Positions 33,891 through 44,183 of a stretch of 57,262 nucleotides of DNA are shown here, piece by piece. The position numbers and the translations under genes were made by a program. Source of the stretch: Flavobacteriales bacterium. GTDB taxonomy: Bacteria; Bacteroidota; Bacteroidia; NS11-12g; UBA955. Position 1 is the stretch's first letter; each line of letters begins with the position of its first letter. The stretch spans positions 1-57,262 of the forward strand of contig NSIM01000011.1 of assembly GCA_002737705.1 (NCBI GenBank). Direction: 5' to 3'. The notes below the pieces were generated by a model that saw only the letters and a program-made list of their open reading frames with translations, did not search any database and had not been told where the DNA came from.

Positions 33891-34619
33891 TTATTGTAAG
33901 CGATGCTTATTCACAAGTGCCAAAATAGATTCTTTATAGTTCTTGCCTATTGGAAGTATTTTATTTCCAATTTTTACTCCATTTTGTTGAATGGACACAA
34001 CATTGTTTTTTGACACAATAAAACTCCGATGGATTCGAATAAACAAATCTGGAGGGAGAGCCTTTTCCATATTTCGCATGGTTTGCAGGGTTACCAATCT
34101 TTTTTCTGGCCCAATCCATATTTTAATATAATCGGCAAATGCCTCGATATATAAAATATCTGCGTAGTGAATTTTTTGGTGATGGCCATCTATTTTTATA
34201 TACACAAAATCAGGTTTTAACGAACTATCTTGGGTTTGAGAATATTTTAAAGATTGGAACTCTTCTAGACGTGCAATGGTTTTTTGAATCCTTTCTGGAG
34301 ATATTGGTTTCAATAGATAATCAAGGGCTTCAAATTCGAAAGCCTCTGGCGCATAATTGGGATATGCAGTCGTAAAGATAACCGCATGGGGCGCAGGATA
34401 TTGATTTTTAACAAGTTCTAGCCCCGATATACCTGGCATTTGAATATCGGTAAAAATGGCATCCACTGTATTGTCTTTCATCCATTGAATTGCATCTACG
34501 GCATTTGAAAAGCGCTCCACGATACACAATTGGGGGTAATTTGACAGGTGTAACGTTAGCACTTCCAATGCAAGGGGTTCATCGTCTATAAAAATGCAAC
34601 GTATGGGCTCGTTTTTCAT
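33891..34619 (-). CDS. LytTR-family response regulator
   Basis: The 242-residue protein has a receiver domain (IFIDDEPLALEVL, phospho-acceptor Asp58 in FTDIQMPG, TTAYPNYAPEAF, and Lys in YLLKPI) and a C-terminal LytTR DNA-binding domain (residues ~135-238, with FVYIKIDGHHQKI, IEAFADYIKIW and IRIHRSFIVSK). It follows its kinase by one base. LytTR regulators bind paired direct repeats; no target is identifiable here. Confidence 0.93.
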   Translation of the reverse strand: MKNEPIRCIFIDDEPLALEVLTLHLSNYPQLCIVERFSNAVDAIQWMKDNTVDAIFTDIQMPGISGLELVKNQYPAPHAVIFTTAYPNYAPEAFEFEALDYLLKPISPERIQKTIARLEEFQSLKYSQTQDSSLKPDFVYIKIDGHHQKIHYADILYIEAFADYIKIWIGPEKRLVTLQTMRNMEKALPPDLFIRIHRSFIVSKNNVVSIQQNGVKIGNKILPIGKNYKESILALVNKHRLQ

Positions 34620-34620
34620 A

Positions 34621-35676
34621 TTAAAAAATTATATCAAGTGTTACAGAATATTTACTATCCGAATTTTCTACAGTCAATACGTGTTTATTTGGATATGACA
34701 AATTCAATCTTTTTTCTAAATTTATCAATCCAATCCCTCCTTTTTCTGATCGGCTTGTGTCTGAATGAACAGAATTTTCAACCAAAAATCTGTAGCCATT
34801 TTCTAAACATGTGCCTACAATCTTTACCCAGCCCTCATCTAATTGAACTTGCGCACCATGTTTAAACGCGTTTTCGACCAAAGTGAGGTATAACATTGGC
34901 TCTATCTGTGAATTCTTGATGGGATTCTCCATTGTCATAACAACCGTAACGCGGCTATCTAAACGCATTTTTTCCATTTCTACAAAATCGGCAAGGTGTT
35001 TTAATTCTTCATAAAAGTACACTTTCCCATTGCTCGTTTCTTCCAAAATATAGCGAAGAATATTGCTTAATCTCAAAATCATTTGCGGGGCCAATTCCGA
35101 TTTTTTAAGGGTAAGCGCATAGACATTGTTCAGGGAATTAAACAAAAAATGGGGGTTTATTTGGATTTTTAGGTACTTCAATTCTGTTTGCAATTGAATT
35201 TGCTGCATCTCTTTTTTGTGCTCCTGTTCTCCGTAATAATCTTTTAGCAACTTAATTGTCATGGACAAAATAATGCTAAAAAGCAGACTTAAGAATATCA
35301 AAAAAAGGAAAAAATACGACCACACGGCTCCCTTGATTCCCGCATTGATAATAAGGGCATGTGATAACATTGAAATGGGAAATGCAGCCGAACCTATCAA
35401 CAGCAAACAAGCAATTAGGTATATAAAATACTGGCGATGCAACAACAATTTGGGTACCAAATAATACATATTGAAATACACCACAAGTGCATGGCTGGTC
35501 ATAATAGGAAATTGTCTTAGGAGCGAATCACTCCAATTATTGCCCATACGGATAAAAAAGGTATTGATAATGGTATAAATAACCCAAAAAAATACATGGT
35601 GTAATTTAAACCGTGAAGCAATTGATTCTGCCTCTTTGATTATTGTTGGCAGTGGCTTATGCAAATCAAAAGACAT
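34621..35676 (-). CDS. LytS-type (His_kinase) sensor histidine kinase
   Basis: The 351-residue membrane kinase has four hydrophobic helices between about residues 28 and 140, then a helical linker and the kinase box QINPHFLFNSLNNVYAL with His176. The ATPase part shows LVENAFKHGAQVQ near residue 270 and GGIGLINLEKRL near 316. It lacks a recognisable periplasmic sensing domain, so its signal is likely membrane-derived or comes from the small upstream protein. Two bases separate it from that gene. Confidence 0.92.
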   Translation of the reverse strand: MSFDLHKPLPTIIKEAESIASRFKLHHVFFWVIYTIINTFFIRMGNNWSDSLLRQFPIMTSHALVVYFNMYYLVPKLLLHRQYFIYLIACLLLIGSAAFPISMLSHALIINAGIKGAVWSYFFLFLIFLSLLFSIILSMTIKLLKDYYGEQEHKKEMQQIQLQTELKYLKIQINPHFLFNSLNNVYALTLKKSELAPQMILRLSNILRYILEETSNGKVYFYEELKHLADFVEMEKMRLDSRVTVVMTMENPIKNSQIEPMLYLTLVENAFKHGAQVQLDEGWVKIVGTCLENGYRFLVENSVHSDTSRSEKGGIGLINLEKRLNLSYPNKHVLTVENSDSKYSVTLDIIF

Positions 35677-35678
35677 CG

Positions 35679-35897
35679 TTATCTTGGTTTGAGCAAAGAT
35701 TCATATCCCAATCTCAACCCATTCGAAGGGACGAGCATCTTTGAATTGTATTGAAATGACTGAAATGATCCTTGGTTATTGAGAGAGGGTGAACCTTGAA
35801 CAATACAAAAATAATAGCGTGCAGAAAAAAAACCGATACAATTAATACCGAGTAAAAAAAGAATAAGCTTCCATGAGTGTAATGTACTTCTTACCAT
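35679..35897 (-). CDS. Small membrane protein upstream of LytS/LytTR pair, unknown function
   Basis: A 72-residue ORF, start ATG 35897 (MVRSTLHSWKLILFLLGIN), has one hydrophobic helix at about residues 9-28 and a polar tail rich in Ser, Asn and Gln. I recognise no family. It ends two bases before the kinase start, and an exact -7 element lies upstream, so it is plausibly the first gene of the operon. The frame is open to 35927, but the promoter element lies within that stretch. It could be a signal or partner for the kinase; this is inferred from position only. Confidence 0.5.
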   Translation of the reverse strand: MVRSTLHSWKLILFLLGINCIGFFSARYYFCIVQGSPSLNNQGSFQSFQYNSKMLVPSNGLRLGYESLLKPR

Positions 35898-35910
35898 GAT
35901 TCTTATTTGA

Positions 35911-35918
35911 CAAATGTA
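35911..35918 (-). promoter_or_regulatory. -7 element (TACATTTG) for the LytS/LytTR operon
   Basis: An exact TAnnTTTG match on the minus strand lies 13 bases before ATG 35897. No TTG is found at the -33 spacing. It supports a three-gene transcript beginning with the small membrane protein. Confidence 0.4.
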
Positions 35919-35962
35919 ATGCCACAATGCAATCCATAAATGTCCTTACAATGATGGTTATA

Positions 35963-37804
35963 TCATTTCGAAAAATATCTTCTTATAACGTTGGATTGAA
36001 GACCCAGCAACAGCGAATCCAAGGGTGTCGCCAATGAGAATTTTTGTAAAAAAACAACGTGTTGTTTGTCATTGCTGGTATAAACAGCTTTGTCATTGGC
36101 AAAAGACAGAGAATTTCCCGGATGGGATGGGTGAAATACATTTCTTGAAAAAGGAATGGGTGTATCTTCTCCAATAATTTGTGAAGCGATTGTTGCAAAA
36201 ATATCTGTTTGGTTTACAACAAGTTGGGGTGATACTCCCCGGTATAATTCATTTACAGCTCCGCCTGAAAATATTAAAGGTATCCTAAAAAACTCTTGTT
36301 CATACTCGTTTGACATAGGCAATCCCGGAATTTTCCCATGGTCTCCAACAAAAACCAATAGCGTGCTGTCGTAAAGATTTTCTTTCTTAAGATGCTCCAC
36401 CAACTCACCAATTGCTTCATCGGTATAGGCAATAGATGTATACAGTTTCTCTTTTTCATCTAGATTTTTGTTTTCAACAATATCATAGGGCTCATGACTG
36501 CTTAGGGTTAACCATGAGGCAAAAAAAGGTTTGGGAAGCAACTTGAGTTTCTTGACCACTTCAACAAGCATGGGTTTGTCGTGCTTACCCCAAACAGAAT
36601 TCCTTTCTTGGCCATAAGACTGAATATTAGAAAATCCTACATACCGTAAATACGATTCCATATTAACAAATTGAATATCTCCTCCATAAAAGAATTGGGT
36701 TGTATAATTGTGCTTGGCGAAACGCTGTGGCAAGGTTTCCAAATGAACAAAATTCCAACGACTTGGGTCTATCAGTAACCCATACCAAGGTTGCCCGGGC
36801 CAGGCAGAAAATATGCTTGCCAAGGCTTTGTCTGTTCGGTCGCCTGAAGCGTATGCCTTGGTAAAAACTATTCCTTCTTTTCCAATGCGATTGAGATTGG
36901 GGGTAGCCGAAACACGATGATCGCGGTTTTCAGTCCAATGTGCACCAAAGCCTTCCAATATTACGATCAAAACATTAGAGTGGGGCTTTAACACGCGTGG
37001 AATTCTGCTGATTCCACCTGGCATAGTATCTGAATAGGCATATTTACGCAATGCATTTTGCTCAATATTGGTATCAAGAATGGCAATTTTTGCTTGTTTA
37101 AAAACCCCACCCTCATCTATGACAAAACCGGCGTTCCACAGAGAATTGGTCGCCAATAGATTCAGTATATTGTTGGTAGAATAATAACTAGCCCCCAGAG
37201 ACAAGGGATATTTCCCAATGCCCCCCCTCACGCCAATGATGAGTATAGGAAGAACAAAAAGAATTCTCCATCGGAATAGAAAGGTGGGCGAAATCTTTAC
37301 AAAAGTTGTCGCAAAAACCCTGGCGCAAAGAAATGCCAATCCGAAAACAAGACACATAACCACACACAGCAATGTCAATTGGTATCCGGTTATACTGGTT
37401 AATAATTGTTTGGGAAATTGCAAATATTCAATTGCCTGTGCATTGACCTTACTATTCCAAAAATTCAGCAACTCACTATCAATTAAACAAATAAATGCCG
37501 TTAACGACATTGCAATTCCTTGAATCCATTGAATATAGCGGGTAATCGCAAGGCCCTTTATTGGCAATAAGAGCAAACCCATTAAGAGTATAATCGTAAA
37601 ATACGAACTCACCGAAACATCTTGAATTAACCCGTTGTATTGGGTATCAATGGCATCTGACATTGAAATAGATGCGGTTTGTATACATGCAATTTGTATT
37701 GATCGCGACAAAAACTGCAACAACAAACAAAATAAAAAAAAATAGCACAACAAAAGAAAAAACCCATTTTTAAACAGGTTTTTTCTTTTGTTGGTTATAC
37801 CCAT
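35963..37804 (-). CDS. LTA synthase-like membrane phosphotransferase/sulfatase
   Basis: The protein has a membrane domain of five helices (to about residue 215) and an alkaline-phosphatase-fold extracytoplasmic domain. The latter shows VLIVILEGFGAHW (metal-binding Glu), YASGDRTDKALASI with the nucleophile Thr, WGKHDKPML and LVFVGDHGKIPG. Relatives transfer glycerol phosphate or phosphoethanolamine onto lipids or glycans. ATG 37804 gives 613 residues; TTG 37837, overlapping the upstream stop, and GTG 37828 are possible alternatives. It is the last gene of the phoH-purC-T9SS cargo run, and a perfect inverted repeat lies in its first codons. Confidence 0.88.
   Translation of the reverse strand: MGITNKRKNLFKNGFFLLLCYFFLFCLLLQFLSRSIQIACIQTASISMSDAIDTQYNGLIQDVSVSSYFTIILLMGLLLLPIKGLAITRYIQWIQGIAMSLTAFICLIDSELLNFWNSKVNAQAIEYLQFPKQLLTSITGYQLTLLCVVMCLVFGLAFLCARVFATTFVKISPTFLFRWRILFVLPILIIGVRGGIGKYPLSLGASYYSTNNILNLLATNSLWNAGFVIDEGGVFKQAKIAILDTNIEQNALRKYAYSDTMPGGISRIPRVLKPHSNVLIVILEGFGAHWTENRDHRVSATPNLNRIGKEGIVFTKAYASGDRTDKALASIFSAWPGQPWYGLLIDPSRWNFVHLETLPQRFAKHNYTTQFFYGGDIQFVNMESYLRYVGFSNIQSYGQERNSVWGKHDKPMLVEVVKKLKLLPKPFFASWLTLSSHEPYDIVENKNLDEKEKLYTSIAYTDEAIGELVEHLKKENLYDSTLLVFVGDHGKIPGLPMSNEYEQEFFRIPLIFSGGAVNELYRGVSPQLVVNQTDIFATIASQIIGEDTPIPFSRNVFHPSHPGNSLSFANDKAVYTSNDKQHVVFLQKFSLATPLDSLLLGLQSNVIRRYFSK
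37748..37793 (-). repeat. Perfect 17-bp inverted repeat at the 5' end of the LTA-synthase-like gene
   Basis: Arms 37748-37764 and 37777-37793 are exact inverted copies around a 12-base loop. On the mRNA the hairpin would begin eleven bases into the ATG 37804 reading frame, where it could hinder translation or transcription. It encodes NKRKNLFKNGFFLLL, so both arms also code. Confidence 0.85.
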
Positions 37805-37833
37805 TGAATGCTTTGTTATGTTGGACACATTGC

Positions 37834-39678
37834 TCAATGAATAACCACAATCATGGCTTTATACATCTTGGATAAATTGTCAAGGACATTGGCATAATAA
37901 ACGCCGGGCAATACAAAAGACAAATCAATGACATTCTTATCGATACAAATTTTTTGTTTTTTTCCATCCATCCCCCATAATTCAGCATTGACAATATTGT
38001 CTATCCCCATTACTTTTACTTGACTTCTTGAAGGATTGGGGTAAAAAAATACCTGTTTACACAAGCTATTCTCTGTTGATGCCAATGCCACTGTGATGTA
38101 ATTTGTTTTGGTAATCTGGTCTGTTCCAACTGAATTTGACAAGCTCAGCGAAACAGAATACAAGCCCAAAGCACTGAATTTGACTTCCGGGTTTCTGGAA
38201 GAATTGCTTGTAGAATTTACATACGAAAATGTAGCTGGGCTGATGGTCCAATTCCAAGCAGTGGGAGTATTCTCTGACAAATCAACCAAGCGAATGGTTT
38301 GCGTTGGGGTAGGGTTTGTAATATCTGCCACAAAATTGGCTATTGGTTTAAGATTGCTTATATTGGATACGTTGATATAACTATTTTTGGTTGTCAAACT
38401 CTTGTCTGATGAATTACTGCCCTCAAGTGATACAGTATATGATCCGGTTGCGCTAAATGAAACAAAAATATTTTTATCCGTAAGCTTAGAATTCGCTTGC
38501 AAAGAATACATATTGGGAGTGATAGACCAACTGTATGCCTGCGTGTATTTACAGTTAGATACCAGAGATACTGTCTGGCCAACGTTAACGGAAGTTTTGT
38601 TTGCAGAAAAATCTACAACAGGAGGCGTTTGCAGTGTCAGGCGACGAATTACATTGTTTTTTGTATCACAAATAAAGAAAGCCGAATCGGCAGATCGGTA
38701 GGTAAACAAAGACAAATAGCCAAAAAATGCATCCTTTGCCAAGCCATCTTTATAGCCCGTTTCTGCATCCTGACCTGCATAAATTTTGACAGTTGTTCCA
38801 TCAAATACCTTAATATTATATTGGTCGGCTATATAAATCAAGCCATTAACGGAAACAACATCAGTGGGCAAATTTAAACCACTGGATATCACAGTTGTAA
38901 CTTCATTTGTCTTGAGATTTAATCGTTTGATTTTTTTATTGTTTCGATCGGCGATCAACATGCTATTGTCATTTTCTAACCAAATACCCGAAGGAGCGTA
39001 AAACATAGCGTTCGCACCGACACCATTCGCATCTCCATTGGTTTTGGGCTTCCCTGCGATGGTGGTTACTTTGCCAGAGGATATTTTACGGATTACTTCA
39101 TTGCCAAAATCACAGATATACATTTCTCCACTTGAATTAATCGCAATATCCGATGGGCTCGAAAAATACGCGTCAGCGACCAATCCGTCTTTGTGATCAC
39201 CAACAAAAGAATAATTACCCGCAATTGTAGTAAAAACAGTACCATTGGGAGTATTTACGAACTGAGACCCTTTTCGTATCAATGCATTGTCTGTATCGAC
39301 AATGTAAACATCATTGGTGGTTTTGTTAATCGCCAATCCTGATGGCATATTGAATCTTGAAACAGAGGCTGTTCCATTGTCAATGCCAATGGCCCCAGGC
39401 TCATTGGGATCACCCAAGAAACCACCACGAATCAAACTGTAAGGCCCATTCAAAATCATCACATTGTGCTGATCTGTTACCCATAAGCGGTTGTTTTTGT
39501 CGGCACAAATACCCATTGGAATACTAAACAACTCTTCCAACAATAGATTGCTGGAAGTTGAATTGAATTCGCCACTGCCCAAGTATTGTTTTCCCGCATA
39601 TGTGGTCACATTTTGGGAGCTGGCATTTAGAGAAAAGAGTATCGCTAAAACAAGAATTTGCAATTTTTTACTGTTCAT
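37834..39678 (-). CDS. Secreted NHL-repeat/PKD protein with T9SS type A sorting domain
   Basis: The 614-residue protein has a signal peptide (to about residue 22, LNASSQ). NHL-type propeller blades fill residues ~30-350 (for example MPSGLAINKTTNDVYIVDTD and SPSDIAINSSGEMYICDFGN). Two PKD-like domains follow (ANFVADITNPTPTQTIRLVD near 445). The C-terminal ~75 residues (FFYPNPSRSQVKVMG) form a type IX secretion sorting domain. It should be delivered to the cell surface; its ligand is unknown. The start overlaps purC by 11 bases and its stop overlaps the alternative TTG start of the next gene. Confidence 0.85.
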   Translation of the reverse strand: MNSKKLQILVLAILFSLNASSQNVTTYAGKQYLGSGEFNSTSSNLLLEELFSIPMGICADKNNRLWVTDQHNVMILNGPYSLIRGGFLGDPNEPGAIGIDNGTASVSRFNMPSGLAINKTTNDVYIVDTDNALIRKGSQFVNTPNGTVFTTIAGNYSFVGDHKDGLVADAYFSSPSDIAINSSGEMYICDFGNEVIRKISSGKVTTIAGKPKTNGDANGVGANAMFYAPSGIWLENDNSMLIADRNNKKIKRLNLKTNEVTTVISSGLNLPTDVVSVNGLIYIADQYNIKVFDGTTVKIYAGQDAETGYKDGLAKDAFFGYLSLFTYRSADSAFFICDTKNNVIRRLTLQTPPVVDFSANKTSVNVGQTVSLVSNCKYTQAYSWSITPNMYSLQANSKLTDKNIFVSFSATGSYTVSLEGSNSSDKSLTTKNSYINVSNISNLKPIANFVADITNPTPTQTIRLVDLSENTPTAWNWTISPATFSYVNSTSNSSRNPEVKFSALGLYSVSLSLSNSVGTDQITKTNYITVALASTENSLCKQVFFYPNPSRSQVKVMGIDNIVNAELWGMDGKKQKICIDKNVIDLSFVLPGVYYANVLDNLSKMYKAMIVVIH

Positions 39679-40642
39679 CGAAGTATTTTGTTAATTCGTT
39701 GTTAATGTTATTTTGTACTTGTTCAAGAATATTCTCATACGATCTTCGCTTCATTGGGCTACCTGTTATCGCCAAATATAGTTCCTCATATCTTTCCGAG
39801 ATATTGCCTACAAAATCATCGGTCATCGGGGGTATAACTTCTCCTTTTTTTCCTTGAAATCCATTTTTTATCAGCCATTCACGCACAAATTCTTTGCTTA
39901 ATTGACGTTGAGAGAGACCTTTTTGTTGCAACGCATCATAAGTGTCCAAATAAAAAAAACGACTGCTGTCGGGCGTGTGAATTTCATCAATCAGAACAAA
40001 TCCATCCCCTTTTAAGCCAAATTCATATTTGGTGTCGACAAGAACCAAACCCTTGTTATGGGAAATTTGAGTTCCTCTTTCAAACAATGCAAAACTGGTT
40101 TCATACAATGCGTCAAGCCTTGCTTTAGGGATCAGTCCGCTCTCCAATATTTCAGTGTAGCTGGTATCTATATCGTGGCCACTATGCGCTTTTGTTGAAG
40201 GGGTGATGATACATTTGGGCAAGGGGTCGTTTTCCTTAAGACCTTCGGGCAGTATATTCCCACAAAGCATTCTCCCACCCTCTCTGTAAGTGCGCCAAGC
40301 ATGTCCTGTTAAGTATTTCCGCAAGACAAACTCAATCGGAATCGGTTCACATCGACGACCAATGGTAACATGTGGGTCTGGGGTAGAAATTTTCCAATTG
40401 GGAACAATATCATTTGTCTTGTCGAGAAAAAAACAAGCAATCTCATTCAGAACTTGCCCTTTATACGGAATGCTGCGGGGCAAGACATGGTCGAAAGCAG
40501 AAATTCGATCGCAGGCAATCATCACCAATATGTCAGAACCAATGCTGTATACATCTCGCACTTTTCCCCGGTAAAAATTGCTTTGATTTGGAAAGAAAAA
40601 ATTGCTTGCAGTAAGGGAATTAGACTGTATCATCATTGCCAT
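39668..40642 (-). CDS. purC: Phosphoribosylaminoimidazole-succinocarboxamide synthase PurC
   Basis: PurC joins CAIR and aspartate with ATP in purine synthesis. The 324-residue product is of the longer eukaryote/Bacteroidetes-like type: NFYRGKVRDVYSIGSDILVMI near residue 22-42, DRISAFDHVLP near 45, EFVLRKYLTGHAWRTY near 103, and LVLVDTKYEFGLKGDGFVLIDE near 197-218. ATG 40642 is used; the frame also opens at a TTG (40651) that lies within the -7 element, and ATGs occur at 40636 and 40633. It lies between phoH and the T9SS cargo gene. Confidence 0.94.
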   Translation of the reverse strand: MAMMIQSNSLTASNFFFPNQSNFYRGKVRDVYSIGSDILVMIACDRISAFDHVLPRSIPYKGQVLNEIACFFLDKTNDIVPNWKISTPDPHVTIGRRCEPIPIEFVLRKYLTGHAWRTYREGGRMLCGNILPEGLKENDPLPKCIITPSTKAHSGHDIDTSYTEILESGLIPKARLDALYETSFALFERGTQISHNKGLVLVDTKYEFGLKGDGFVLIDEIHTPDSSRFFYLDTYDALQQKGLSQRQLSKEFVREWLIKNGFQGKKGEVIPPMTDDFVGNISERYEELYLAITGSPMKRRSYENILEQVQNNINNELTKYFDEQ

Positions 40643-40648
40643 GCCCGA

Positions 40649-40656
40649 CAAATATA
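40649..40656 (-). promoter_or_regulatory. -7 element (TATATTTG) for purC
   Basis: An exact TAnnTTTG match on the minus strand ends six bases before ATG 40642, again pointing to a leaderless or nearly leaderless start. It overlaps the alternative TTG start, which makes that start unlikely. Confidence 0.42.
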
Positions 40657-40674
40657 AAATAGAACTACACTTTT

Positions 40675-41703
40675 TTATTGTGAATCTTTTTCACAATCGG
40701 TGTCTCGTTCGTAGGCGTGTACAATTTCTTTGACGAGTCTATGCCTTACAACATCACCTGTATCCAGTTCGATTGCAGCGATTCCTTTGATATTCTTAAG
40801 CAATTTCAGGGCCTTTCCCAATCCACTTTGTTGCTTGCGTGGCAAGTCTATCTGGGTCAAATCGCCGGTGATAATTAATTTTGCGCTCGGACCCATGCGG
40901 GTCAGAAACATTTTCAATTGAAGGTCGGTGCTATTTTGTGCCTCATCCAAAATTACATAGCAATTGTCAAGCGTCCTACCCCTCATAAATGCCAGTGGTG
41001 CAATTTCCACGATCCGACTTTCGATCATACTTTTAAGCTTGTCGTTGGGGATCATGTCTTCCAATGCATCGTATAGTGGCCTTAGGTATGGATCTATTTT
41101 TTCTTTGAGGTCCCCCGGAAGAAATCCCAAATTTTCACCCGCTTCAACTGCTGGTCGGGTTAAGATAATTCTGCGAATTTCGCGCTGTTTGAGCGCTAAA
41201 ACAGCGATGGCCACCGCTGTGTAGGTTTTGCCGGTTCCGGCTGGGCCTATCGCAAAAATGATATCATTTTTACGCGACGCATTAACCATTTTTACTTGGT
41301 TGCGTGTTCTCGCCTTAATTTGTTGACCACGGGTACCAATCAACAATACATCTCCTGTGCTTATCGCAGACACTTTTTCGGACTTTACACGGGGTTCTTC
41401 AATATCTATTGATTCCATTGCCTCCAAAACGATATGCTCATTAATCTCTTTTGCCTTTGAAAACACAAATTCCAAGTGTTTCATTGATTTCTGAAAATTG
41501 TTCATTGACAATTCGTCACCCACTATTTTAATTTCGTCGCCCCTGGCAACAAATTGCAATTTCGGAAATTTCGATTTGATAATCGAGAAGTGGCTGTTGT
41601 TTGGCCCGTAAAATAGTTGGGGATCAATTACATCGAGGGTATAAATTTTTTCGGTCAATGTGATGTTTGTAGTGTATTGCAAACCTAATGAAAAACAAGG
41701 CAT
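40675..41703 (-). CDS. PhoH-like ATPase
   Basis: The 342-residue cytoplasmic P-loop ATPase has a KH-like N-terminal region (residues ~40-95), Walker A GPAGTGKT at 153-160, RPAVEAGENLGFLPGDLKEK near 186, and Walker B ILDEAQNST near 248. Relatives such as YbeZ act with YbeY in rRNA maturation and RNA decay. No ybeY is adjacent. The start ATG at 41703 is the first in frame. It precedes purC by 32 bases. Confidence 0.92.
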   Translation of the reverse strand: MPCFSLGLQYTTNITLTEKIYTLDVIDPQLFYGPNNSHFSIIKSKFPKLQFVARGDEIKIVGDELSMNNFQKSMKHLEFVFSKAKEINEHIVLEAMESIDIEEPRVKSEKVSAISTGDVLLIGTRGQQIKARTRNQVKMVNASRKNDIIFAIGPAGTGKTYTAVAIAVLALKQREIRRIILTRPAVEAGENLGFLPGDLKEKIDPYLRPLYDALEDMIPNDKLKSMIESRIVEIAPLAFMRGRTLDNCYVILDEAQNSTDLQLKMFLTRMGPSAKLIITGDLTQIDLPRKQQSGLGKALKLLKNIKGIAAIELDTGDVVRHRLVKEIVHAYERDTDCEKDSQ

Positions 41704-41725
41704 TGTGCGATTTGAATTATTAAGC

Positions 41726-41757
41726 TTGTATAAACTTATTTTCCCTACTTACATTTG
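41726..41757 (+). promoter_or_regulatory. TTG-N21-TACATTTG promoter toward the FG-GAP/ASPIC gene
   Basis: TTG at 41726-41728 and TACATTTG at 41750-41757 are 21 bases apart. Transcription would run right with a leader of about 135-140 bases before ATG 41901. That leader contains GGT and ACC arms (around 41861-41876) that could form a short stem. Confidence 0.5.
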
Positions 41758-41827
41758 ATAATGAATATGCCATGCCAGTTTTGAATATGATTTGATTGTT
41801 AACCAATTATTTCTTATTGTTGCCGAC

Positions 41828-41835
41828 CAAATATA
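41828..41835 (-). promoter_or_regulatory. -7 element (TATATTTG) toward phoH
   Basis: An exact TAnnTTTG on the minus strand lies about 125 bases before the phoH ATG. It points leftward, against the plus-strand element at 41750, so the two transcripts would overlap. No TTG is at the -33 spacing. Confidence 0.3.
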
Positions 41836-41900
41836 TTTATAAAGCCCAACCACAGGTAGGCCTTGACCTCCTAAAATAAAAATAGTACAACACCACCCAA

Positions 41901-44183
41901 ATGAAAAAAAAATCCTTTATACTCCGTGTTGCATTTAAACTCATTTTAATACTGGTTTTATTTTTCTCTGCTTGCAATTCTCCCAAAAATCCCGAAACAG
42001 ATTCCCGTTTTGATGGCAATCGAAAAATGGCCAAATTATTGGATAGCCTAAACAATTCTGCCGACCCGGATATCAATTATTTCCTCAGTGGTCGAAGGGC
42101 GGCTCGATTGCAACAAAAAGGACATTCTTTTACTGAATCCGATGACATCATTCGATGGGAAACCAAATACTGTTTTGAATTACTCAATGCAGGCAATACA
42201 GAATATGCCATTAAAAACCTTTTATTGATGATCAACAATTATAAAGGTGGAGCTGGAAATGCATTGCAAAATCCAGAATTTAAAAAAGTATTCGACCTAT
42301 TGGCAGTGGCTAATTTGCGACTGGGTGAGTCTGAAAATTGTCTTTCAAACCACAATTCTGCCAGCTGTATTATGCCATTACAAGAAAATGCCGTTCATAA
42401 AATTCCCAAAGGATCATCCAATGCCATTGATTTGTATTCTGATATATTAAAGGTATATCCCAATGACTTACAGAGTAAATGGCTTTTAAATATTGCATAC
42501 ATGACCCTCGGCCAATACCCATTAAAGGTTCCATCCAAGCACCTTATTCCTTTTGATGAATTGGATGAGCCCGCGCCTGGTTTTATTCCCTTCAAAAATC
42601 TTGCTGTTGAATTGGGAATTGACGTAAACAATTTGGCTGGCGCTTCAATTATAGAAGATTTTAACAATGATGGATGGATGGATATTTTCTGCACTTCCTA
42701 TGGTTTGTTTGATGAAGTAAAACTTTTTATCGCTGATGGAAAAGGTTCATATTCCAACGAAAGTGGCAAAGCCATGCTCTCGGGAATCGTGGGTGGACTC
42801 AATGCCAAACAAGCAGATTTTAACAATGATGGATGGATGGACATCCTTATTTTGCGAGGTGCATGGCTTGATAAAGGAGGTGAGTGGCCAAATAGTTTGT
42901 TGCGAAACAATGGTGATGGAACCTTTAGCGACATTACCATCTCTTCTGGAATGCTCAGTTTTTGCCCAACCGAAACAGCGACATGGGCGGATGTTAACAA
43001 TGACGGCCTACTGGACGTGTTTGTTGCAAATGAGAATAACGATGCCAATGAATTTCCTTGTGAATTGTTTGTCAACAACGGCAACGAAACATTTACCGAT
43101 GTTGCCAAAGATTGGGGTTTGGACGGAAATTTTGGATGGGCAAAAGCCGCGGTTTTTGCAGACTTTAACAACGATGGATTACAAGACTTATTCATCTCTT
43201 GTTTGAACCAATCGAATAAATTATTCATGAACCGTGGACAGAACAACAAATCCAAAAGGATGCTATTCGAAAACATAGCAGAAAAAGCAGGCATCACCCT
43301 GCCTTTTCAAAGTTTTCCAGCCTTGGTTTTTGACTACAACAATGATGGCTTAGAGGATATTTTCTGCACTTCCTTCCCGATGGACAAATTGGGCTTGGTT
43401 GGAGAAGAGGCGGCAAAAGAATATTTAAGAATCGCCTCGTCTACAGAAAAAGCCAAACTCTATAAAAACCAAGGAAATGAAACATTCCAAGATGTGAGCA
43501 AGTCCATGGGATTAGACAAGATAATTTTTGCCATGGGCTTTAATTTTGGCGATTTAGACAATGATGGCTGGTTAGATGTTTATGCCGGTACAGGGGCCTT
43601 CGAGTATACGTCGCTCGTACCAAACCGGGTATTTAAGAACGAGAAAGGAACACATTTTTCAGAAATTACGATGGCTTCTGGAATGGCCCATTTACAAAAA
43701 GGACATGGAATATCTTTCGGCGACCTTGATAACGATGGCGATCAAGATTTATACATTACCCTTGGAGGTGCTGTAGAAGGAGACAACGCACACAATGCAT
43801 TGTTTGCCAACCCAAATCATAAAAATCATTGGATTACCCTCATGCTAGAAGGCGTGGGCTCTGCCAAAGATGGACAAACCAGCAGGGTGAAAATTGTAAG
43901 TTCTGGACCCGAAGGCCGTCAAGTTTTTTACCATACAATCGGGTCCGGTGGATCCTTTGGGGCCAATAGCATTCAATTAGAGGCTGGCTTGGGCAATTCT
44001 AGCACGATTGAATCTGTAGAAATTTTATGGATGGGTGACCCGAAAAAGAAAGAGGTTTTTACAAATCTGCCTATCGACAAGGTTGTAAAAATTGTCCAAG
44101 GATCCAAAAAATTTACCGTGGTTCAGCGTTTGCCCATTCCTCTCAAAGGCAATGGAAACAGCAATAATTGTTGTAAAAAATAA
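41901..44183 (+). CDS. FG-GAP/VCBS-repeat lipoprotein with ASPIC/UnbV domain
   Basis: The 760-residue product has a lipoprotein signal with lipobox Cys25 (LFFSAC). A helical, TPR-like N-terminal part (to about residue 220) is followed by seven or so calcium-binding FG-GAP repeats of the form DFNNDGWMDIF, DVNNDGLLDVF, DYNNDGLEDIF and DLDNDGDQDLY. The C-terminal ASPIC/UnbV domain spans about 650-745 (GSGGSFGANSIQLEAGLG). Such proteins are surface-anchored adhesion or polymer-binding proteins in Bacteroidetes. Two stretches of nearly identical DNA occur in the repeats. Confidence 0.9.
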   Translation: MKKKSFILRVAFKLILILVLFFSACNSPKNPETDSRFDGNRKMAKLLDSLNNSADPDINYFLSGRRAARLQQKGHSFTESDDIIRWETKYCFELLNAGNTEYAIKNLLLMINNYKGGAGNALQNPEFKKVFDLLAVANLRLGESENCLSNHNSASCIMPLQENAVHKIPKGSSNAIDLYSDILKVYPNDLQSKWLLNIAYMTLGQYPLKVPSKHLIPFDELDEPAPGFIPFKNLAVELGIDVNNLAGASIIEDFNNDGWMDIFCTSYGLFDEVKLFIADGKGSYSNESGKAMLSGIVGGLNAKQADFNNDGWMDILILRGAWLDKGGEWPNSLLRNNGDGTFSDITISSGMLSFCPTETATWADVNNDGLLDVFVANENNDANEFPCELFVNNGNETFTDVAKDWGLDGNFGWAKAAVFADFNNDGLQDLFISCLNQSNKLFMNRGQNNKSKRMLFENIAEKAGITLPFQSFPALVFDYNNDGLEDIFCTSFPMDKLGLVGEEAAKEYLRIASSTEKAKLYKNQGNETFQDVSKSMGLDKIIFAMGFNFGDLDNDGWLDVYAGTGAFEYTSLVPNRVFKNEKGTHFSEITMASGMAHLQKGHGISFGDLDNDGDQDLYITLGGAVEGDNAHNALFANPNHKNHWITLMLEGVGSAKDGQTSRVKIVSSGPEGRQVFYHTIGSGGSFGANSIQLEAGLGNSSTIESVEILWMGDPKKKEVFTNLPIDKVVKIVQGSKKFTVVQRLPIPLKGNGNSNNCCKK
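42657..42841 (+). repeat. Direct repeat of 26 bp within the FG-GAP coding region
   Basis: Identical 26-base copies lie at 42657-42682 and 42816-42841, coding DFNNDGWMD in both. A different 20-base stretch repeats exactly at 42680-42699 and 43355-43374, coding DIFCTS. The sameness at third codon positions points to recent duplication or gene conversion between blades. Confidence 0.85.

Follow-up and report, generated by a model that had tools for sequence, protein, structure and literature searches.

A terminator-like hairpin conserved within the first transmembrane-helix codons of a downstream gene in a family of Bacteroidota

The window analysed here is a stretch of 57,262 nucleotides from a Flavobacteriales bacterium (contig NSIM01000011.1 of assembly GCA_002737705.1), and its minus strand carries, in the order of transcription, phoH, purC, an NHL/PKD cargo gene and an LTA-synthase-like gene (Table 1). 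For the LTA-synthase-like protein the assignment reaches the sulfatase superfamily and stops there, as the NCBIfam model for LtaS (NF053595) scores 58 bits against a cut-off of 970. Pfam searches of ten cargo proteins, several of them partial, found PKD in all ten and NHL above the gathering score in seven, and among 11 cargo orthologues compared with models of the T9SS sorting domain (TIGR04183 or PF18962) six score above the cut-off, four below it and one (G044) has no match; the window's own copy was matched by neither model at E thresholds of 0.001 (Pfam) and 0.01 (NCBIfam). The stop codon of the cargo gene (TGA, 37836-37834) overlaps a TTG at 37837 that is in frame with the LTA-synthase-like gene, and an ATG at 37804 lies in the same frame, 33 nt further on. 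This ATG is a doubtful start, since G005, the closest orthologue (88% protein identity), lacks it but retains the TTGA overlap. About 290 bp past the LTA-synthase-like gene, genes for a His_kinase-family sensor and a LytTR response regulator occupy 33891-35676 of the same strand. Two LTA-synthase-like homologues elsewhere (G025:C22:241808-243415 and G071:C4:320359-322023) have one in-frame stop reported within the match.

Table 1. Genes and sequence features at the cargo/LTA-synthase-like junction, in window coordinates
Feature	Position	Strand	Basis or remarks
phoH-like gene, codirectional	40675..41703	(-)	Pfam and NCBIfam
purC, codirectional	39668..40651	(-)	NCBIfam
NHL/PKD cargo gene, T9SS-like C-terminus	37834..39678	(-)	NHL and PKD by Pfam
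TTGA, cargo stop TGA overlapping in-frame TTG	37834..37837	(-)	sequence; kept in G005
LTA-synthase-like gene (sulfatase superfamily)	35963..37837	(-)	likely start TTG 37837, alternative ATG 37804; Pfam PF00884, E 1.4e-28
Hairpin in the LTA-synthase-like coding sequence	37748..37793	(-)	5' arm 37793-37773, UAAA loop 37772-37769, 3' arm 37768-37748
GGGTTTTTTCTTTTG of the hairpin's 3' arm, coding G-F-F-L-L at the start of the first hydrophobic helix	37751..37765	(-)	sequence and translation
Second T run (T9), 5 nt past the end of the stem, in Y-F-F-L codons	37734..37742	(-)	sequence and translation

Close to the start of the LTA-synthase-like gene lies the sequence CAACAAAAGAAAAAACC-CATTTTTAAACA-GGTTTTTTCTTTTGTTG, whose perfect arms of 17 bp enclose a spacer of 12 nt and which begins, on the minus strand, 11 nt past the first base of ATG 37804. 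The initial annotation had described this inverted repeat, with a 12-base loop, at 37748-37793, and it is present exactly there. Folding of the mRNA, a check that had been proposed for it, extends the structure, as part of the spacer pairs too (G-U pairs included) and a stem of 21 pairs closed by a 4-nt loop, UAAA, results; the 161-nt region around the repeat folds at -43.8 kcal/mol, compared with -30.1 +/- 3.6 kcal/mol for shuffled versions (z -3.8, with none of 200 as good). The A-rich arm codes for N-K-R-K-N, and the core together with the U-rich arm codes for N-G-F-F-L-L, where the first hydrophobic helix begins, which matches the basic and hydrophobic coding ascribed earlier to the two arms. 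That such a perfect stem inside coding sequence would be improbable by chance had also been claimed; 100 order-1 Markov versions of the window contain none, and 11 perfect repeats with arms of at least 17 bp and a spacer of up to 20 occur in 857,262 bp of the window's own genome (the window and 40 further stretches). The window's repeat is the only one of the 11 to lie wholly inside an ORF. Eight others are intergenic, one (L107) lies between ORFs and one (L198) runs across the 3' end of an ORF; thus, in this genome, a repeat of this type usually marks the end of a gene. The idea of a repeated palindrome was rejected, since even with up to three mismatches the pattern occurs at one place in the genome, that of the window, and an Rfam search of the window returned no match at the gathering score. 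Elsewhere in the same genome, two very long perfect intergenic palindromes (L122:13985-14030 and L124:5542-5589, about -32 and -39 kcal/mol) might act as strong terminators, or be mobile or regulatory elements.

In form and position the hairpin resembles an intrinsic terminator. It is stable, has a GC-containing stem and a short loop, and is accompanied by a U-tract that consists of TTTTTTCTTTT within the arm followed, past a gap of 5 nt, by T9. A terminator scan of positions 35500-42000 gave it the longest stem, with 20 counted pairs against 10 for the runner-up. It begins 40 nt past the cargo stop, and the corresponding distance in orthologues is 14-43 nt; in the same genome, 12 of 16 intergenic terminator-like hairpins (<= -12 kcal/mol, within 150 nt past a stop) lie at 8-36 nt. 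The U-tract is interrupted by a C, and the core of the stem, at -2.0 kcal/mol, is the weakest GC core among those of LTA-synthase-like genes that were folded (-5.3, -6.7 and -8.0 kcal/mol in three others), so that the terminator predicted for the window may be among the leakiest.

An LTA-synthase-like homologue was found in all 15 genomes of the window's genus and in 69 of the 70 of its family, the 69 including weaker and possibly paralogous matches. The 5' ends of 63 family genes were read, 45 of them in the cargo context, a label assigned from the C-termini encoded upstream (and from lineage for L018 and L032, where the cargo stop is out of view), and 18 outside it; family genomes in which the 5' end ran off the contig, the sequence was unfetched or the gene was missing were left out, for example G051, G035, G027, G031, G019, G015 and G056. 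A uniform test scored a hairpin as in place if its 5' end fell between -30 and +25 nt of an aligned anchor, at <= -10 kcal/mol and with a T-rich 3' side. By this test 41 of the 45 cargo-context orthologues of the family have the hairpin in place, compared with 0 of the 18 family orthologues that lie elsewhere, 0 of 17 from the sister family and 0 of ten paralogues; L106, first spotted by eye, was scored in this way too. Three loci that fail the test, L034, L048 and L104, have a hairpin found by a separate listing (-14.7, -19.3 and -13.4 kcal/mol). With these two analyses combined (41 and 3), and with the T-rich 3' side a condition of the search, the hairpin is found in 44 of the 45 cargo-context loci, in nine genera and in 15 of 15 loci of the genus; the genomes are mostly incomplete assemblies, the relatives are not independent and the gene calls are simple ORF picks. 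A looser test, which accepted the best hairpin of <= -10 kcal/mol wherever it lay near the start, returned 42 of 45, 1 of 18, 2 of 17 and 1 of 10 for the same four groups, and its matches in the three control groups, like that in L034, are displaced from the hairpin's place. The sole cargo-context member of the family with a degenerate hairpin in this gene is G049 (L050), which might serve as a natural comparison.

Across genera the stems are unrelated in sequence (AAAAACCCGTTGAAAAACGGGTTTTT, GAAAAAAAACCGTTTTTTAACGGTTTTTTTTC, AAGAAAAACCTGCTTTCGAGTAGGTTTTTCTT, AAAGGCATCAAACTATGGTTTGGTGCCTTT and others), and the encoded peptide changes along with them. A hairpin that is kept in the cargo context and absent elsewhere, while its stem and peptide are unrelated between genera, follows the upstream gene and not the protein in which it is encoded. 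The observation that the initial annotation had named as fatal to its proposal, orthologues with a conserved protein and no inverted repeat, does exist in the literal sense in genus g4 and in the sister family f2, but the genes in question do not stand behind the cargo gene, and this again suggests that the hairpin belongs to the upstream gene, rather than having arisen by chance.

Evidence for selection on the RNA itself comes from two sources. For 31 of the 45 loci, 300 synonymous versions were generated with the amino acids fixed and the codons redrawn from the usage of each gene, and 30 of the 31 native sequences fold better than at least 286 of their 300 recodings (z -2.0 to -5.9); the remaining one, L034 (G045), is no better than its own synonymous versions (z -0.6). 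Covariation was assessed over 28 distinct hairpins of the same register drawn from 32 loci, in which 95.1% of the cells are paired and six of 11 core pairs show two-sided changes. Among 500 shuffles none reaches this degree of pairing, two reach the number of two-sided pairs and four the number of pair types, and slid versions of the alignment pair at 34-73%; the set includes G043 and G042, which by eye belong to another register and lower the score. A synonymous pair change separates the window from G005, where Lys AAA/AAG and Leu CTT/CTC together swap an A-U pair for a G-C pair. Both the search for compensatory changes and the in silico synonymous changes that had been suggested earlier were thereby carried out, the latter at the level of folding, and both came out in favour of the hairpin.

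The reading frame runs through the element. Of the 38 loci in which both the hairpin and the cargo stop are visible, 37 have a downstream frame without stops between the cargo stop and a point 30 nt beyond the hairpin; for the 38th, G044, one stop is counted, presumably that of the cargo gene, which there uses the same frame, with an ATG at +15. The two other frames together hold at least two stops in every one of the 38 loci, the cargo's own included. Of 43 loci with a visible cargo stop, 28 have an NTGA overlap between the two genes (25 TTGA, 2 ATGA and 1 GTGA) and three more have TAATG; a separate listing places an NTGA overlap in the frame of the LTA-synthase-like gene in 27 loci.

A scan of the own-genome stretches for terminators near ORF starts yielded one other case that was judged genuine. 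At L118:17817-17890 (contig C13), a terminator-like hairpin lies inside the coding sequence of ctaA, a gene of the COX15-CtaA family (Pfam E 1.3e-37) positioned directly behind COX1 (E 1.1e-120); the NCBIfam model for heme A synthase matches the gene weakly (22 vs 550 bits). Over 857 kb, five hairpins of <= -16 kcal/mol fall in same-strand ORFs, namely those of the window and of ctaA, L122:909, L205:6032 and L113:5879, the last of which sits 543 nt into its ORF. From translations inspected by eye, with no gene caller, L122:909 and L205:6032, along with the weaker L204:9822, were judged to lie in short or over-extended ORFs and rejected as genuine cases. A general habit of the genome was rejected as well, two cases having been judged genuine in 45% of it.

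Within the window's family the ctaA element, an in-frame hairpin with a T-run, was found in 47 of the 48 loci read out of 64 matches, with stems that are unrelated in some genera (CAGACGAATAGGT, AACCGAAGA, ATAGAAAAGCAGGT, ACCGCACATATAGT). It codes for Arg-Arg ... Ser-Ser-Val-Phe-Leu-Leu at the start of the first helix, and the frame must therefore run through it. Over 45 distinct sequences, 96.2% of the cells are paired and 11 of 13 pairs show two-sided changes, none of 500 shuffles reaching any of four measures. Moreover, the 14-codon window that holds the hairpin has the highest codon identity of 224 windows across 28 genes (0.92, against a median of 0.46). The exception is G015 (L215), which lacks the internal hairpin and has the terminator-like AAAAAGGGCTTCAATGAAGCCCTTTTTTT just before the conserved part of the gene, a junction that looks like turnover of the terminator's place. 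In genus g21 of the sister family, a terminator-like hairpin precedes the ctaA start in 13 of 13 loci; nine other ctaA loci of that family have no such hairpin. In some of the g21 loci (L231-L247) the frame is open through the hairpin (GFFYPIPSM), like an intermediate state. The comparison of g21 with the window's family indicates that the position of the terminator can be either in front of the second gene or within it, the latter being the case in the window's family. In other families of the class the hairpin was found in none of 28 ctaA loci, taken irrespective of whether they follow coxI. Among 395 genomes sampled across the class, five of them from the window's family, two have the exact ctaA pattern, which is too strict for several of the family's genera, and both belong to the window's genus; the pattern also occurs in 29 contigs titled as Bacteroidota MAGs. 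With two elements of the same design, one may speak of a small class in this family of Bacteroidota.

Several alternatives to a terminator have to be considered. The hairpin might be a by-product of coding, with a basic segment and an F/L-rich helix setting AAA against TTT by chance in an AT-rich genome, and it is true that AAA/AAC/AGA and TTT/CTT/TTG codons are naturally complementary and that the synonymous versions themselves fold at -5 to -14 kcal/mol on average. The native fold nevertheless beats those versions in 30 of 31 loci, the GC cores covary, and orthologues outside the cargo context have hydrophobic N-termini and yet no hairpin in place, so that on the synonymous randomisation and the covariation this scarcely credible explanation was rejected. 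Alternatively, the element would be an ordinary intergenic terminator, the true gene starting after the hairpin and the open frame being accidental. Some loci do have TTG or ATG codons after the hairpin (TTG-ATG in part of the genus), L044, L048 and L104 have no ATG, GTG or TTG between the cargo stop and the hairpin, and the ctaA terminator of the sister family does precede the start. A late start is very unlikely all the same, as the frame is open in 37 of 38 loci, in-frame ATG codons precede the hairpin in several genera (for example in G036, as ATGA, in G066 and G058, as TAATG, and in G016, G043 and G044), the 3' arm codes for the start of the first transmembrane helix (TM1), and the codons of the ctaA hairpin are the most conserved of that gene.

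Two further explanations grant the hairpin a function of a different type. The initial annotation had proposed that it could block translation initiation or act as an attenuator. A block, in which the hairpin masks the start region, has in its favour that the stem begins 11 nt into the frame if ATG 37804 is the start; this ATG is, however, absent from G005, the stem begins 44 nt downstream of the conserved TTG, a distance that varies in other loci, and a block would not need a T-run, all of which makes it highly improbable. The hairpin could also be an RNA-processing or 3'-stabilising stem-loop that sets the ratio of the messages post-transcriptionally, as intergenic stem-loops set stoichiometry in the cip-cel operon of Ruminiclostridium cellulolyticum (PMC10311766), and some family members do have long AU-rich stems. 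Such a stem would need no T-rich 3' side, yet one is present in 44 of 45 loci (where it was a search condition), and the spacing from the upstream stop resembles that of terminators in the window's own genome; a processing stem is thus unlikely. Of the earlier proposal, then, the initiation block falls away, and the attenuator separating the LTA-synthase-like gene from the phoH-purC-T9SS cargo genes is well supported by a hairpin of terminator form, in the expected place and in the cargo context only.

What is observed is a hairpin that is conserved and covarying, has a T-rich 3' side, lies in frame and at the distance of a terminator, and goes with the upstream gene rather than with the protein. 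Probably, on the strength of these sequence comparisons, it is an intrinsic (Rho-independent) terminator of the cargo gene that is embedded in the first ~30 codons of the LTA-synthase-like gene. Because the two genes overlap at TTGA, the terminator falls in coding sequence, where the A-rich arm would double as the code for a basic N-terminus and the GC core and U-tract as that for the start of the first transmembrane helix. Many RNA polymerases would stop at the hairpin and the rest would read through, with the consequence that the cargo would be made in excess of the enzyme. Less securely, a ribosome re-initiating at the overlapping start may hinder formation of the hairpin and thereby raise read-through; the overlapping in-frame start at most makes ribosome-mediated attenuation of the trp or bmrB type possible. 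The hairpin thus probably keeps downstream expression low, at a level that may respond to translation. In both pairs the downstream gene encodes a membrane enzyme, of which the cell plausibly needs less than of the upstream product. Counting against an embedded terminator, transcripts ended there would be non-stop messages for ribosomes that had started on the second gene, which is a cost. A more far-reaching and tentative scenario, which we regard as rather doubtful, holds that these elements form a class of ribosome-gated terminators hidden in the codons of transmembrane helices, with the U-tract translated into Phe/Leu of TM1, in which re-initiation at the overlap would decide whether the polymerase passes, both between cargo and LTA-synthase-like genes and between the genes for CoxI and heme A synthase. 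If that were true, output of the downstream membrane enzyme would scale solely with how often the upstream gene is translated successfully.

Arrangements related to the one proposed here are known. In E. coli, the frd terminator is also the attenuator of ampC, and, as proposed for the window, a terminator that ends an upstream unit restricts expression of the gene behind it; unlike the window's hairpin, it lies in the ampC leader and not in ampC codons. In Bacillus subtilis, an intrinsic terminator within the coding region of the bmrB leader provides ribosome-mediated attenuation of bmrCD (PMC4191407). There too an intrinsic terminator in a translated frame controls what lies downstream, and the dynamics of translation alter termination; bmrB differs in being a 162-nt leader with a predicted anti-terminator and a response to ribosome-targeting antibiotics (PMC4191407), whereas the terminator-like hairpin of the window lies in a full enzyme gene. 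In an E. coli test operon, the terminator tR2 placed 30 bp past the AUG loses about 10% of its efficiency to translation, the authors' explanation being that RNA polymerase is still ahead of the first ribosome at that point (PMC4824070). A terminator placed within 100 bp of the start of a coding region thus keeps most of its efficiency there, as would be expected in the window, with the difference that tR2 was an engineered construct and the window's arrangement is natural and conserved over a family. By analogy, the tR2 result would favour plain termination and somewhat disfavour strong gating by ribosomes at the hairpin; unlike in the tR2 construct, the ribosomes that reach the window's junction come off the upstream gene, and the overlap may allow them to re-initiate.

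At the galE/galT junction, termination takes place if ribosomes fail to initiate on the downstream gene (PMC9239205). That case resembles the reading proposed for the window in coupling the end of transcription between two genes to the translational start of the second, and differs from it in being Rho-dependent. ORF-internal 3' ends have been described in E. coli, some of them predicted intrinsic terminators and many assigned to processing or Rho (PMC7815308); those ends were mapped from RNA, while the window offers a covarying hairpin at TM1 codons behind a particular upstream gene. An intragenic terminator is known in pilC2 (PMC6958937), as is Rho-dependent intragenic termination in kinB (PMC5540618). 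In the excerpts of open-licence literature consulted, no report was found of a terminator that is placed in the TM1 codons of a second gene and conserved throughout a family. Leader-ORF terminators, ORF-internal 3' ends and intragenic termination are known, and what appears to be new is a terminator-like element that is conserved across a family in the TM1 codons of the gene downstream.

Hairpins inside genes are easily missed in the annotation of terminators, and the present cases suggest a search rule that can be applied elsewhere, that is, to look for a terminator at TM1 of the second gene in a tight pair. In two operons of one family a terminator-like element has persisted within the codons of the second gene while its own sequence turned over, apparently because a hydrophobic helix can be encoded by U-rich RNA. 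For these bacteria the arrangement is a likely route to a large amount of one product and a small amount of the other from a single transcript, and it may offer a natural test bed for the coupling of transcription and translation in Bacteroidota.
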